Below, piece after piece: positions 50,532-56,296 of a DNA stretch of 64,000 bases; the first letter of the stretch is position 1, and each line of letters begins with the position of its first letter. The translations under genes were made by a program, and so were the position numbers. The notes below the pieces were generated by a model. The model was not told the DNA's origin. It ran no database searches and saw nothing but the letters and a program-made list of their open reading frames with translations. The stretch lies in the NCBI RefSeq assembly GCF_039645965.1, contig NZ_CP147917.1, forward strand, positions 1,674,001-1,738,000, in the 5' to 3' direction. The stretch is from Sulfurimonas sp. HSL3-2 (GTDB lineage Bacteria > Campylobacterota > Campylobacteria > Campylobacterales > Sulfurimonadaceae).

Positions 50532-50624
50532 AAATATACTTCCTTAGCAATTCTAATGTAAAATTATATCTAATTAAAGATAGTTCTAGGTACAATCCAC
50601 ATTATTGTTTAAAGTTTGGAATAT

Positions 50625-51272
50625 ATGATAAATAAAAAATTTACTAACACTGATATTGTCCTGATCGATATCATCGGTTTTTCTCGCAACTCATCCAGAG
50701 AACAGTTAGAGATCATTACCTATTTAACAAGAAGTTACTCCAAAATGATACGTACTCTGCTAAATAATTCTCAAATGAGCTTTAGCAAGATGATCGAAGG
50801 TATTGTACCTACCGGTGACGGCTTTTATTGTATCTTGAACCCTAGGCTTAAAGGGTACGGCGTAATTTTAGGACTGAACTTTATATATTTTTCCGAACTC
50901 ATCAGCAAAAGAAATAAAGATTTTGCCGGTGTTAAAGTCGCTGTCCATACAGGTGAGATATCACCCTTTACAGACATACTCGGGCATACAAACTATATCG
51001 GTGACGGATTAAACGACTGTGCAAGATACCTGCAGATAAAAAACGTAAGCCCAGCAGCTCTTATCGCTTCAAAAGATGCTTTTGACTCATTTGAAAAGTG
51101 GCTAAGTTTCCATCCTGACTTTGAAGAGCTGATGATCGAAAGAGAACTAAAACGCAGCTCTTTACAAGAATTTGAAGATAAACATGGTAAAATAAGAGCC
51201 ACTTATCTTGTTTGGCTAAGACATTCAGGTATCATTAACCCGCCAAATATAAATTTTAACTCTCTATTAATG
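50625..51272 (+). CDS. Class III nucleotidyl-cyclase-like protein
   Basis: 216 aa from ATG 50625 (a TTG three codons upstream is weaker). It resembles a stand-alone class III adenylate/guanylate cyclase catalytic domain: IDIIGFSR near 14-21 with the first metal Asp, PTGDGFYCIL near 64 with the second, VAVHTGEISPFTDILG, and YIGDGLNDCARYLQI, where Asn and Arg match the transition-state residues. The Lys usual before the GD hairpin is not seen, so activity or base choice is uncertain. No sensor domain or TM. First of a tight cluster with the coiled-coil and FapA genes. Confidence 0.75.
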
Positions 51273-51285
51273 TAAGGAAATAACT

Positions 51286-51969
51286 ATGCGTTTTACGATT
51301 GATGAGTATTCAAAACAGTTTAAAATGTCAAAAGAGATGATAAATTCTAAACTAAGATCCAAAAGACTAAACTACATCATTGAAAACGGCACTACATATA
51401 TCATAGTAACGAGAAGTTCACTCGACCAAGAAAAAAGAGAAGAGATACATCAGCAAAATATGCAAAAAAAATCACAAGAACCGGATTCAAACATAGCAAC
51501 TAAAAAAACAACCGTAGGTATGATCCTATCTCTTTATCAAAGAGAAAATGCACAGTTAAAACAGAAGATAAAAGAGTTAGAACACAAAATAGACTCACTT
51601 ATCAATGATAAAGAGCAGATGCTTCGTGACGAAAGAGACAGAATCGAAAGTGTCTACAATTCAAAAGACGAACAACTTAAAACTATACTTGAACTTATAA
51701 ATAAAAAATTCCTACTCGAGCAGAAGAGTGAGACGGTACATGAGGTCAGTCTCAATGAATCCGAAACCATAAATGCATCTTTTGACGATGCTTCGTTTGT
51801 AGAACTAAAATACTATTTAAAGACATTGGATATCGAACCTTACCAAAGAAAGATCATTAAAAGAAGATTTTTAGATGCCAGGGAACATGATATTAGAATC
51901 ATAGAGCAAAACGGGAAAATATTTCTAGATTTTGCCAAATATGATTATTCAGATCTCTTAAAGTATTGA
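51286..51969 (+). CDS. Coiled-coil protein with HTH-like N-terminus
   Basis: 227 aa. The first 45 residues (FTIDEYSKQFKMSKEMIN, then a short strand pair) look like a MerR/excisionase-type or DUF3972-like helix-turn-helix. Residues 80-145 form a strong coiled coil, and a C-terminal helical domain follows (around YYLKTLDIEPYQRKII). No enzymatic motif. It starts 10 nt after the cyclase-like gene, with AAGGAAATAAC before the ATG. The mixture of a possible nucleic-acid or peptide-binding head and a coiled-coil rod suggests an adaptor. Confidence 0.75.
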   Translation: MRFTIDEYSKQFKMSKEMINSKLRSKRLNYIIENGTTYIIVTRSSLDQEKREEIHQQNMQKKSQEPDSNIATKKTTVGMILSLYQRENAQLKQKIKELEHKIDSLINDKEQMLRDERDRIESVYNSKDEQLKTILELINKKFLLEQKSETVHEVSLNESETINASFDDASFVELKYYLKTLDIEPYQRKIIKRRFLDAREHDIRIIEQNGKIFLDFAKYDYSDLLKY

Positions 51970-51994
51970 GATCTTGATCAAGATTAGAGTATAG

Positions 51995-53653
51995 ATGCAA
52001 AAACCCACACTTACCAGAAATATTGATTCATTATTAAAAGAGTTCGCATCAGATACCTTTACCCCGCTAGACAGTTGCGACTTTAAATTACTCGGAACCG
52101 TCACATATATAAAGTATCCAAACGACGAATCATTCACCAAGATCCCCGATGAGCTTTATAAACAATACTCACATGATATCAATGATGTCACTAAAGATAA
52201 AGTAAACATCAATCAGATATATAAGATCGAACTATTCGTAGCTCATGAGTGTACTGTAAAACTTGAATATCAAATAATTTTTGATAAATTCAGTACACAC
52301 CCTAAACTTATAATCCTGCCCTCATCACATATTCCATATAAGACGATGCAGCCAAAAGAACTTTATCCGCTGTTGGTCAATGAGCTCAACAAGATCAAAG
52401 CGAAAAATAGGATATTGATCAACTTTCATCACAAACAGATGCTGGATGATCTTAAAAAGTTCATCAGACATCTGTATGCCGGAAATTTTACGAAACCTGT
52501 CAAAATACTTTTGTTTGAAGGGATAGAACCGGAACTCTCTATGCAGAGTTCAATAGATATGGTCTTTAAAAATAAAAGATCTCCTAACCATCAATTAATC
52601 GAAGTCGATCAAGATGAACTCATCTTAGAATACAGAAAACCTATCTTTGGATCAAACGGTTTTAACTGCTACGGAAAACAGGTAGAACACGGTGAACTCG
52701 ATACAAAAAGCTTTGATCTGGAAATAGACGATGAATCGATCTATACTGAAGAAAAAGACAACAGACTGCTGCTAAAAAGCAGAAAAAAGGGGTATGTAGA
52801 CTACAACGACGGCAGGATAGCCGTAAGCAATGTCGTAAAAGTAAATAAAGTAAATCGTGTCCAGTCTAAAATAACCGATGATGAAGATAACGATATAGAG
52901 ATCGTCGTGGCACAAAACGATATCACAAAAGACAGTGTAGGAGAAGGTACCGAGATAATCTCCGAACGTATACATATAAACGGTCATACCGGCAGTAAGT
53001 CTCTTTTAGAAGCTACAGACCTTGTCATAGAAGGGGCTACGCACCAAGACTCCAATATATTTGCAAAAAATGCCAAAGTCAATAGACACAAAGGTACACT
53101 CAGATGTAACAGAGCCGAAGTGAAGCTTCTTGAAGGCGGAAAGATACATGCATCTTATGCAGAGGTCGGTACATGTCTCGGCGGAAGTATCTATGCTAAA
53201 GACGTCGTTATAGATCATGTAAAGAACAACGTGACTGTTTATGCTTCTAACTCTATCACTATACGACTTGTCAGCGGTGAAGACAACAACTTTACTATCG
53301 ACTATCATAAGATACCTGTCGTTACAAGCCAAATCTCTTTAATAGATGCCGATATAGATGATCTGAAGTTCAGACTTGAAGACGCACTTAAAGATACTGC
53401 TAAAGATGTCTCGGGCATAGAGAATGAGATAAAAGCATTAAAACATGAAAAAGAGCAGATAATCAACTCCTCGCTCAAAGCGACTATATATATAAAAAAT
53501 GCTCTGCATGGCTTGAATGTCATTAAATTCGCTCTACCGAACAATCAAGAGATCATCTATAAGACACTGGCTAAACAATACGACAAGTTCTACCTCGAAC
53601 TTGATGAAGACAAAGTCACCCTGCATCCCGTCGGGATTACAAAAGAGATCTAA
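51995..53653 (+). CDS. FapA (DUF342) family protein
   Basis: 552-aa protein of the FapA/DUF342 family, known in Vibrio to affect flagellar assembly and pole location. The C-terminal half contains the FapA right-handed beta-helix (stretches such as HINGHTGSKSLLEATDLVIE and LRCNRAEVKLLEGGKIHA) and a terminal coiled coil (about 440-500). The N-terminal third has an extra alpha/beta part. Starts 25 bp after the coiled-coil gene. No flagellar gene is near it in the window. Confidence 0.82.
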   Translation: MQKPTLTRNIDSLLKEFASDTFTPLDSCDFKLLGTVTYIKYPNDESFTKIPDELYKQYSHDINDVTKDKVNINQIYKIELFVAHECTVKLEYQIIFDKFSTHPKLIILPSSHIPYKTMQPKELYPLLVNELNKIKAKNRILINFHHKQMLDDLKKFIRHLYAGNFTKPVKILLFEGIEPELSMQSSIDMVFKNKRSPNHQLIEVDQDELILEYRKPIFGSNGFNCYGKQVEHGELDTKSFDLEIDDESIYTEEKDNRLLLKSRKKGYVDYNDGRIAVSNVVKVNKVNRVQSKITDDEDNDIEIVVAQNDITKDSVGEGTEIISERIHINGHTGSKSLLEATDLVIEGATHQDSNIFAKNAKVNRHKGTLRCNRAEVKLLEGGKIHASYAEVGTCLGGSIYAKDVVIDHVKNNVTVYASNSITIRLVSGEDNNFTIDYHKIPVVTSQISLIDADIDDLKFRLEDALKDTAKDVSGIENEIKALKHEKEQIINSSLKATIYIKNALHGLNVIKFALPNNQEIIYKTLAKQYDKFYLELDEDKVTLHPVGITKEI

Positions 53654-54874: not shown

Positions 54875-56296
54875 ATGTTTTCTTCTCTTATATCGTCTCT
54901 GTTCTCAAAGAACAGCAATACTCTAAAAGTACCTGATTCCATACTTGTTAAAAAAGTACAAGAGTGCGCACATGAGAACTTTTTATATCTTTTTAAAGAT
55001 GCCAAGATCTTTCATCATGCAGAGTTACTGGAAATCCCTCTACTGCTTGTCGATCCCAAAAGAGGCATATATATCTTTGAATACAAGACATGGTGCTATC
55101 ATGAAATAAAAGACTTAAAAGCTTCAAAAACTTCCCAACAAGACTCTTCTAAAAACTCTCTTGCTTTTGAATCAAAACACGACTATATAAAAAAAAGGTT
55201 TAATGAAGTACTGAACAATGACGGTACTGATATATATAACTTTGTCTTAATGGAAAATCTTACAAAAGAGGAGTTTGAACATCTTGATAGTTCATTCCAG
55301 GAATTCATACCTCAAAGTAAAACACTCTTTAGTTCAGATAGTATAGAAGATATTAAACACAAGCTTTTCGGTGCATCTGAAGAGAAATCGGACATATTGG
55401 ATGCTGAGAGCATCATATCGACACTCTTTGTTCAGAATATAATAATCGATAATGAAAATCATATAAGAATAACATCTGATGAACAAAACGCTATTATTGA
55501 ACATGAGTTCTCAGGTATAAATTACATATCTACCAGAAACTGTTCAGGAAAGACAAGTACTATCCTTCTCAAAGCTATTTATGAACATCTTCTAAACAGA
55601 GAGAAGAACATCAGCATTGTACAACCGACATATATAGCCTGTGAACTTTTAAAGCAAAGACTTTTAAATACTGTCGAACACGCGATAGTAGAAGTGGATT
55701 TTTCAAAGATATCTATTATCACGCCGCATGATTTTAAAAATAAGAAAAGTGACTTTATCCTCGTTGACGACGCATCGATGTTAGATAAAAAGTTTATAGA
55801 CTATATTATAGGTATGAAAAAAGACACACTGGTCTTTGAAGAGCATGACCCTACAAAAATATATAGATTCACTTTAGATAAATGCTATAGAAGTAAATCG
55901 ACTATTGAACTGTTACATGGAAATCCTTACGCTTTGACATTTCTAAATCTGCAAAGACTCCTTGAAAAAAATATAGATGCAAAAGATATATTGATCATTA
56001 CGACGGATGATGACGACAAGTATAAAATCATTGAAGACTTAAGTTCTTTTGTTGAAGACACCCCGACCATACTAGACCCTTTCGATACTTTAAATAACCA
56101 AGATCTAGAGCATATTCTAATAGCTAATTATGATGAAGTATTTGACTTTTCAAGAGATTATGTATTTGTCTTCAACCCTAGAGATATTGAAGCAAATCTA
56201 TTTAATTTTATATTTTCAAGAGCTAACAAGAAAACATTTGTAATATACGATGATGATAATAAGCAAATAGGAAATATAGATGCAGAAAATTTCTAA
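54875..56296 (+). CDS. NERD-domain and SF1-helicase-like protein with altered Walker motifs
   Basis: 473 aa. The N-terminal part (about 25-75) resembles a NERD nuclease-related domain: [15 protein letters not shown], with a D...ExK arrangement. The rest resembles a UvrD-type SF1 helicase: Q-motif [11 protein letters not shown], motif [12 protein letters not shown] near 220 lacking the first Gly of the P-loop, motif [12 protein letters not shown] (DDAS instead of DEAQ), motifs III/IV in [12 protein letters not shown], and a motif-VI-like [11 protein letters not shown]. It has no 1B/2B insertions. The altered residues make full helicase activity doubtful. Overlaps msrB by 17 bp. Confidence 0.72.

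Follow-up and report, generated by a model that had tools for sequence, protein, structure and literature searches.

A conserved and probably flagellum-linked locus of Sulfurimonas with a predicted class III cyclase, a coiled-coil protein and a short FapA-like protein

Signalling proteins of the Campylobacterota have been the subject of a census, searched with the Pfam profiles PF00211 and PF01295, which in the portions of the paper available reports only CHASE2 adenylate cyclases (PMC9239204). Here, we describe a locus in a window of 64,000 nucleotides (the whole stretch of DNA that was analysed) from Sulfurimonas sp. HSL3-2 (contig NZ_CP147917.1, positions 1,674,001 to 1,738,000 of the forward strand), whose genome is a single contig of 2.24 Mb. 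The locus begins with a stand-alone gene for a protein with a predicted class III nucleotidyl-cyclase fold, followed by a gene for a coiled-coil protein and by one for a short relative of the flagellar factor FapA (Table 1). Because the accessible text of the census reports CHASE2 adenylate cyclases only, the cyclase family of this locus seems to have been overlooked so far.

The two other proteins also have described counterparts. In the available part of the paper on Vibrio FapA, this protein interacts with dephosphorylated EIIA-Glc, and titles cited there state that glucose makes a flagellar protein leave the flagellated pole and that HubP recruits FapA (PMC6877527); excerpts of another article place fapA within flagellar gene clusters in Borrelia and other bacteria (PMC11607428). 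RacA, RocS and Par, in the available section of a further paper, combine a MerR-type head that binds DNA with a coil that mediates oligomerisation (PMC11500499). The single article retrieved for DUF3972 is a Helicobacter proteome study. Literature searches on DUF3972, FapA/DUF342, Sulfurimonas adenylate cyclase, and Campylobacterota cyclases and flagella, whose scope excluded most subscription papers, returned no description of the pair or the trio.

We read the locus as a hub-and-partner unit, in which the coiled-coil protein is the hub and the cyclase-fold and FapA-like proteins are optional, flagellum-linked partners, and give this reading a probability of about 0.4; the locus itself is conserved, and its link to flagella is probable. 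The reading builds on the observed gene order, predicted cyclase fold, catalytic residues, independence of the partners, their absence (two genomes apart) where FlhA is missing, and promoter pattern. If true, it would connect an apparently overlooked cyclase-fold family with a coiled-coil hub and, through the observed correlation, with flagella, and would suggest a path, open to testing, by which a nucleotide could act on polar flagellation; even a catalytically dead protein would be unusual as a conserved cyclase fold partnering a possible DNA tether.

Table 1. Coordinates of the genes and upstream elements in the window
Feature	Position	Strand	Remarks
Inverted repeat TATCT-N6-AGATA, imperfect	50567..50582		just upstream of the -10-like element
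Extended -10-like element GGTACAAT, sigma-70 type	50589..50596	+	28 nt before the ATG
Stand-alone class III cyclase-fold gene (predicted fold)	50625..51275	+	216 aa; D15, D65, N130 and R134 kept; V61 and N123 are the base-reading positions
Coiled-coil (putative hub) gene	51286..51969	+	227 aa; N head 1-50, helix 77-148, C head ~170-215 (model); weak DUF3972 match
Short FapA-like gene	51995..53653	+	552 aa; paralogue of the 641-aa FapA at G000:C1:1213150

Gene order and independence of the two partners

The original prediction, made from the DNA letters and their open reading frames (ORFs), described a cyclase-like gene followed after 10 nt by a helix-turn-helix (HTH)/coiled-coil gene and after a further 25 nt by fapA, all three as one module; the ORF positions reproduce the order and both gaps, with all three ORFs on the plus strand. 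A neighbourhood search shows that the first pair is conserved in relatives. Among 80 named loci, the best 80 of 96 confirmed related loci and mostly from Sulfurimonas and Sulfuricurvum, the cyclase gene precedes the coiled-coil gene on the same strand in every case (79 by script, L114 by eye), an arrangement beyond what chance would produce, with 13-120 nt between the two profile matches in 79 loci. A short FapA gene comes third in 30 of the 79 scored loci (only in part in L060, L077 and L111); the other 49 have no FapA match, 39 of them with at least 2 kb of flank and 10 with under 2 kb, and the FapA state changes at least five times on a quick tree. Upstream of the cyclase, the neighbouring gene lies on the opposite strand in 72 of 72 loci, four further loci ending at that point, and its kind varies (35 of a type we take to be aldolase-like, 33 unmatched and 4 others).

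To gauge how strictly the partners go together, presence was tallied over 147 family genomes (presumably Sulfurimonadaceae) of at least 90% completeness, short FapA being counted at E below 1e-160 with a 254-aa fragment in G453 left out. Many of the genomes analysed are drafts or metagenome-assembled. The named loci, the 147 family genomes and a set of 41 relatives used below overlap (for example, L036 matches G003, L037 matches G007 and L038 matches G002), and the three sample sets are therefore not independent. The cyclase profile matches 81 family genomes, a number that includes G470 (another, longer protein, L202), G001 (internal deletion) and G456 (pieces), and short FapA occurs in 65. 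Both are found in 31 genomes, the cyclase only in 50 and short FapA only in 34, a co-occurrence not above chance (Fisher p 0.13); with G470 removed from the cyclase positives the counts become 30, 50 and 35. An obligate trio is thereby ruled out, cyclase and short FapA being independent over the 147 genomes.

The coiled-coil gene accompanies short FapA as faithfully as it does the cyclase. It lies directly before short FapA in all 34 loci fetched for this purpose (32 by script, L172 and L181 by tblastn), which represent 32 of the 34 FapA-only genomes plus G470 and G454, and it does so too in the two remaining FapA-only genomes, G015 and G018. Where a trio-type cyclase is lacking, in 33 of the fetched loci, the first or second ORF upstream is the divergent aldolase-like gene, and the cyclase is therefore cleanly absent there. 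Two genomes retain remnants: in G001 the cyclase gene (L034:7575-7931) has lost residues ~62-153 in frame, including D65, N130 and R134, beside intact coiled-coil and FapA genes, a deletion that could be an assembly error, and in G456 the cyclase is in pieces with stops next to an intact coiled-coil gene.

Since each partner adjoins the coiled-coil gene without the other, the coiled-coil protein is the constant member of the locus and a linear cyclase-to-FapA pathway is not required. Of the single module first envisaged, the adjacency of cyclase to coiled-coil and of coiled-coil to FapA holds and the obligate trio does not. Likewise, control of FapA by the cyclase through a coiled-coil adaptor, the mechanism put forward at the outset, is supported in part, by the fold, the neighbourhood and the correlation with flagella; as a necessary pathway it finds no support, the two partners being independently distributed.

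The three proteins

The assignment of the first protein to the class III nucleotidyl-cyclase fold is based on a predicted fold and on motifs. The AlphaFold2 model, computed from 37 sequences, has a predicted local distance difference test (pLDDT) score of 91 and a predicted template modelling (pTM) score of 0.88; the 50 Foldseek matches listed all belong to class III cyclases (best E 1.3e-07), and in VIA-align human soluble guanylate cyclase gives the best score (Z 17.7, root-mean-square deviation 2.7 over 179 residues). A better match to a non-cyclase fold, which would have spoken against the predicted identity, did not turn up. The two metal Asp residues and the Asn/Arg pair noticed at first sight are indeed present: across the 77 sequences compared (the window plus 76 named loci, L052, L097, L099 and L104 having been dropped by the ORF picker), the metal-binding D15 and D65 and the transition-state residues N130 and R134 never vary, nor do L13, T63, N123, D185, K186 and H187. 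The family is divergent in sequence. Guanylate_cyc (PF00211) matches below threshold (E 0.027, 14.5 of 21.9 bits), a cut-off that is a sequence threshold and not a biological feature, and none of the 37 alignment members matches that profile at E 0.01; sequence searches of the PDB gave nothing usable, and hhalign aligns the canonical cyclases of the genome with the cyclase profile over residues 89-158 only (probability 59).

An alignment of the base-specifying residues returned a non-canonical pair. Lys with Asp (or Thr) reads ATP, and Glu with Cys reads GTP. Position 61 is Ile in 56 and Val in 21 of the 77 sequences and position 123 is Asn in all 77, which fits neither pattern; opposite V61 and N123, the three canonical cyclases of the same genome carry Lys and Thr (V61 was located by eye from the GD motif that they share, N123 by hhalign). 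The residues that PycC uses for UTP or CTP, as given in the available part of the Pycsar paper, are absent as well (PMC11224242). Because its base-reading residues are non-canonical, the substrate of the protein is not predictable from its sequence. A nucleotide-binding pseudoenzyme is possible; the four invariant catalytic residues would hardly have been kept without nucleotide chemistry or binding.

These residues bear on two other explanations. An active cyclase could make a diffusible cyclic mononucleotide read elsewhere in the cell, by one of the three proteins of the genome whose cyclic nucleotide monophosphate (cNMP)-binding domain (CNB) matches are above cut-off, and not by its operon neighbours. 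The complete metal and Asn/Arg set is what such an enzyme would need; at the base-reading positions, however, it matches the pattern for neither ATP nor GTP, the three canonical cyclases could themselves serve the CNB receptors, and it would be left unexplained why the gene is so strictly linked to that of the coiled-coil protein, so that we consider this improbable. A Pycsar-like anti-phage system, making a pyrimidine cyclic nucleotide upon infection, would account for a stand-alone class III fold, and the uridylate cyclase 8jsz stands at rank 26 among the fold matches; a distant relative in G076, described below, also has a TIR protein as its neighbour, in a region that looks defence-like. 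PADLOC nevertheless returned nothing for the cyclase up to an E of 10, the two neighbours showed no match to a CNB, TIR or transmembrane effector domain, the PycC base residues are lacking, and the locus is fixed across a bacterial family and missing from FlhA-less genomes other than G431 and G440; this explanation is very far-fetched.

In a phylum-wide sample the cyclase profile matches 31 of 397 genomes, 26 of them within the family; the remaining five are G028, the distantly related G076 and three genomes whose marginal matches fall within long frames. In G076 (L160:6970-8720) a stand-alone cyclase of 384 aa follows a ThsB-like TIR protein after 17 nt, with dGTPase-like and Cas8b matches nearby, possibly as a TIR and cyclase defence pair. 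The G470 protein (L202:1818-2837), also stand-alone and cyclase-like, measures ~340 aa, lies outside a trio and has the motif IPTGDGM in common with the G076 protein. One of the three canonical cyclases of the Sulfurimonas genome, G000:C1:1435914 (L148), does not look by eye like a CHASE2 protein, contrary to the published statement that every adenylate cyclase found in the phylum is of that type.

The coiled-coil protein was described in the original prediction as an HTH/coiled-coil protein, and its structure model predicts a winged-helix-like head and a 72-residue helix. The model (pLDDT 85, pTM 0.33) has a single helix at 77-148, with a block of pLDDT 94-98 over residues 81-140, and at each end a strand-helix-helix-hairpin head with the same order of predicted elements. 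Both heads are basic (median isoelectric point 9.4 for the N head and 9.2 for the C head over 46 sequences) and the coil is acidic. The N head (1-50) weakly resembles BldC (Z 4.8), Xis (4.0-5.3), SoxR (3.9) and pSK1 Par (3.8), its best Foldseek E being 0.14; on the strength of the model the protein is perhaps a winged-helix DNA tether like RacA, and the absence of RacA itself among the 50 matches listed in either fold list says little. A DUF3972 (PF13118) match over residues 7-86 stays below the cut-off (E 0.0007, 20.5 of 26.2 bits), 6 of the 46 alignment members match that profile at E 0.001, and a PDB sequence search gave nothing usable. An origin of the heads by internal duplication was considered and rejected: the order of elements is the same, but hhalign finds no sequence similarity between them. 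A paralogue is encoded elsewhere in the genome (L159:6919-7515, G000:C1 near 48101), with an HTH_17 match just below cut-off (E 8e-06, 26.4 of 27 bits) and flanked by genes that we presume, by eye, to be yajQ and dnaG.

The third protein is a member of the FapA family by FapA_N homology, as had been foreseen. FapA_N (PF20250) matches the window protein just below the cut-off of 27 (24.9 bits, E 1.5e-05); of nine alignment members, seven match it at an E of 0.001 or lower (best 4.8e-10). The protein is 28% identical (E 6.7e-36) to the 641-aa FapA of the same genome, which itself clears the FapA_N cut-off with 84.4 bits; a PDB sequence search was again without usable result.

Link to flagella and expression

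The presence of any FapA agrees with that of FlhA in 143 of the 147 family genomes (132 with both and 11 with neither). The four discordant genomes are G431 and G440, which carry FapA without FlhA and have clear FliG matches (94% and 91% complete, respectively), and G059 and G485, with FlhA and without FapA. At least one partner, cyclase or short FapA, is found in 113 of 134 FlhA-positive genomes vs 2 of 13 FlhA-negative ones (p 6e-07; this and the following p-values ignore shared ancestry, and the genome lists behind the tallies were copied by hand). The two FlhA-negative carriers are G431 and G440, and in the 11 family genomes lacking both FlhA and FapA neither the cyclase nor short FapA was found. 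For the cyclase alone the association with FlhA gives p 0.003 (0.0001 without G431 and G440; 0.007 once G470, G001 and G456 are removed from the positives). Among the 41 relatives, any FapA occurs in 34 of 35 FlhA-positive genomes vs 0 of 6 FlhA-negative ones.

The coiled-coil gene, which was sought in FlhA-less genomes within these 41 relatives, is present in the FlhA-less family members G014, G017 and G019 (the last 65% complete), in which FlhA, FapA and the cyclase were not found. It was not found in G026, G029 and G035, FlhA-less genomes of other families, as in most non-family genomes. In G028, which belongs to another family, a cyclase relative with 42% identity heads a same-strand run of flagellin-like, FlaG, FliD and FliS genes.

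Such patterns could in principle arise if the three were housekeeping genes that have no function in common and that vertical inheritance has kept side by side. Downstream, neighbours such as the small HTH gene and the HU-like one are often conserved as well, and cyclase and short FapA are inherited independently, both as expected from mere inheritance. However, the gene upstream of the cyclase varies while the coiled-coil gene is constant, and the partners are missing without FlhA (G431 and G440 apart) whereas the coiled-coil gene is kept in the three such family members checked; we therefore regard shared inheritance without function as distinctly unlikely.

The upstream region points to a promoter of sigma-70 type. 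Of 77 upstream regions, 32 contain the extended -10 pattern class, as against a mean of 2.4 and a maximum of 10 in mononucleotide shuffles, with the reservation that the GGTA[CT]AAT form of the pattern was written after the window had been seen. Strict sigma-54 and sigma-28 patterns are found in none of the 77 regions and a loose sigma-28 pattern in 16, vs 10.7 expected; the idea that the unit belongs to the flagellar sigma-54 or sigma-28 regulon, which was considered, thus has no support. With a sigma-70-like, non-flagellar promoter pattern, the unit therefore seems to be expressed outside the flagellar cascade, which suggests a fit with a hub existing before and without flagella. The inverted repeat, with a spacer of N6 or N7, is present in 6 of 6 genus members examined and was seen in none outside the genus; it occurs in 9 of 82 cyclase upstream regions vs a shuffled mean of 0.28 (the nine regions are six genomes, three being counted under two locus ids) and in none of the 33 regions that precede a coiled-coil gene without a cyclase, and may reflect shared ancestry only. 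A shared-word search of the upstream regions gave genus- or clade-specific elements only. Several of the Sulfurimonas loci L166-L184, which lack the cyclase, have a TTCATTTAAAATAACTTT-like element in common before the -10, upstream of the coiled-coil gene.

The same region invites a regulatory interpretation, with the coiled-coil protein as a MerR-like factor, the cyclase as its nucleotide-sensing partner in a split transcription regulator and short fapA as target. The weakly MerR/BldC/Xis-like N head, the sigma-70-like pattern with its inverted repeat in the genus of the window, and the position of the cyclase at the start of the unit behind an opposite-strand neighbour would all suit a regulator. 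Yet the repeat was seen nowhere outside the genus, a helix of 72 residues is long for a MerR regulator, and coiled-coil and FapA stay together after loss of the cyclase; on balance a split regulator is unlikely, if well worth keeping in mind.

In the hub-and-partner reading, the hub would have a winged-helix head of MerR/excisionase type, a coil of ~70 residues and a second basic head; it would probably dimerise and most likely sit on DNA, serving as a scaffold or tether in the manner of RacA. The cyclase partner, judged from its predicted fold, would probably bind a nucleotide and possibly make a cyclic one, acting as a nucleotide-dependent switch; short FapA, related to the polar flagellar assembly factor FapA, would act by contact with the flagellar pole, and together the two would link the hub to the assembly or placement of flagella. 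All direct contacts in this scheme are inferred, as are tethering, dimerisation and the binding of DNA and of a nucleotide. In a bolder version, the protein would found a new class III cyclase family that reads an unusual base through its Val/Ile-Asn pocket and signals locally to a chromosome-bound coiled-coil tether also carrying a FapA-type flagellar factor, such that a nucleotide signal couples nucleoid position to the flagellated pole; we consider it a long shot.

Several results weigh against the hub-and-partner reading. With regard to flagella, the association of cyclase and FlhA is not significant among the 41 relatives (p 0.065), and 21 FlhA-positive genomes carry neither partner, so neither is required for flagella. 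The independent losses are few, in about four clades (two genera and single genomes in two others). Among the 11 FlhA-less genomes the FliG match is good in G275, and weaker FliG_C matches occur in G326, G423, G424 and G014, which makes the absence of FlhA a proxy and no proof of flagellum loss. The promoter pattern is not of a flagellar type, cyclase and short FapA co-occur at chance level, and in G028 no coiled-coil gene was found with the cyclase. As for the hub, the winged-helix matches are weak (Z 3.8-5.3), with no Foldseek E under 0.001; the top-Z rows of the coiled-coil protein (up to 7.0) are mostly coil matches, and Pfam at E up to 1 returned no HTH family for the window protein.

Further downstream in the window, a gene at 54875-56296, with AAA_19 and NERD matches below threshold, changes fast: its identity to counterparts in the relatives examined ranges from 75% down to ~24%.

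Comparison with known systems

The cyclase-fold protein has in common with class III catalytic domains (soluble guanylate cyclase, Cya2, CyaB and Rv1264) the predicted fold over residues 1-200 and the two metal Asp residues, with the Asn and Arg at canonical spacing; it differs from them as a stand-alone protein of 216 aa with Val/Ile and Asn at the base positions, an invariant Asp-Lys-His at 185-187 and a score below the PF00211 cut-off. With the CHASE2 adenylate cyclases, as far as the available part of the census describes them (PMC9239204), it shares superfamily and phylum, but it has no matched sensor or membrane domain and other neighbours. Pycsar PycC, according to the accessible text (PMC11224242), likewise combines a class III fold with a cyclase gene separate from its effector; where PycC has Tyr/Phe two residues before the first metal Asp, the window cyclase has Leu, and no CNB effector gene was matched.

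As regards the coiled-coil protein, RacA, RocS and pSK1 Par, in the section available (PMC11500499), resemble it in architecture only, by a predicted N-terminal MerR-like head followed by a long helix, whereas the structured basic C-terminal head predicted for the window protein sets it apart; to DUF3972 it is linked by the weak match of residues 7-86, below the cut-off. Finally, the third protein resembles Vibrio FapA, as presented in the available part of its description (PMC6877527), in FapA_N homology and correlation with flagella, and departs from it as a short, divergent paralogue that adjoins a coiled-coil gene in a genome encoding a second, long FapA elsewhere.

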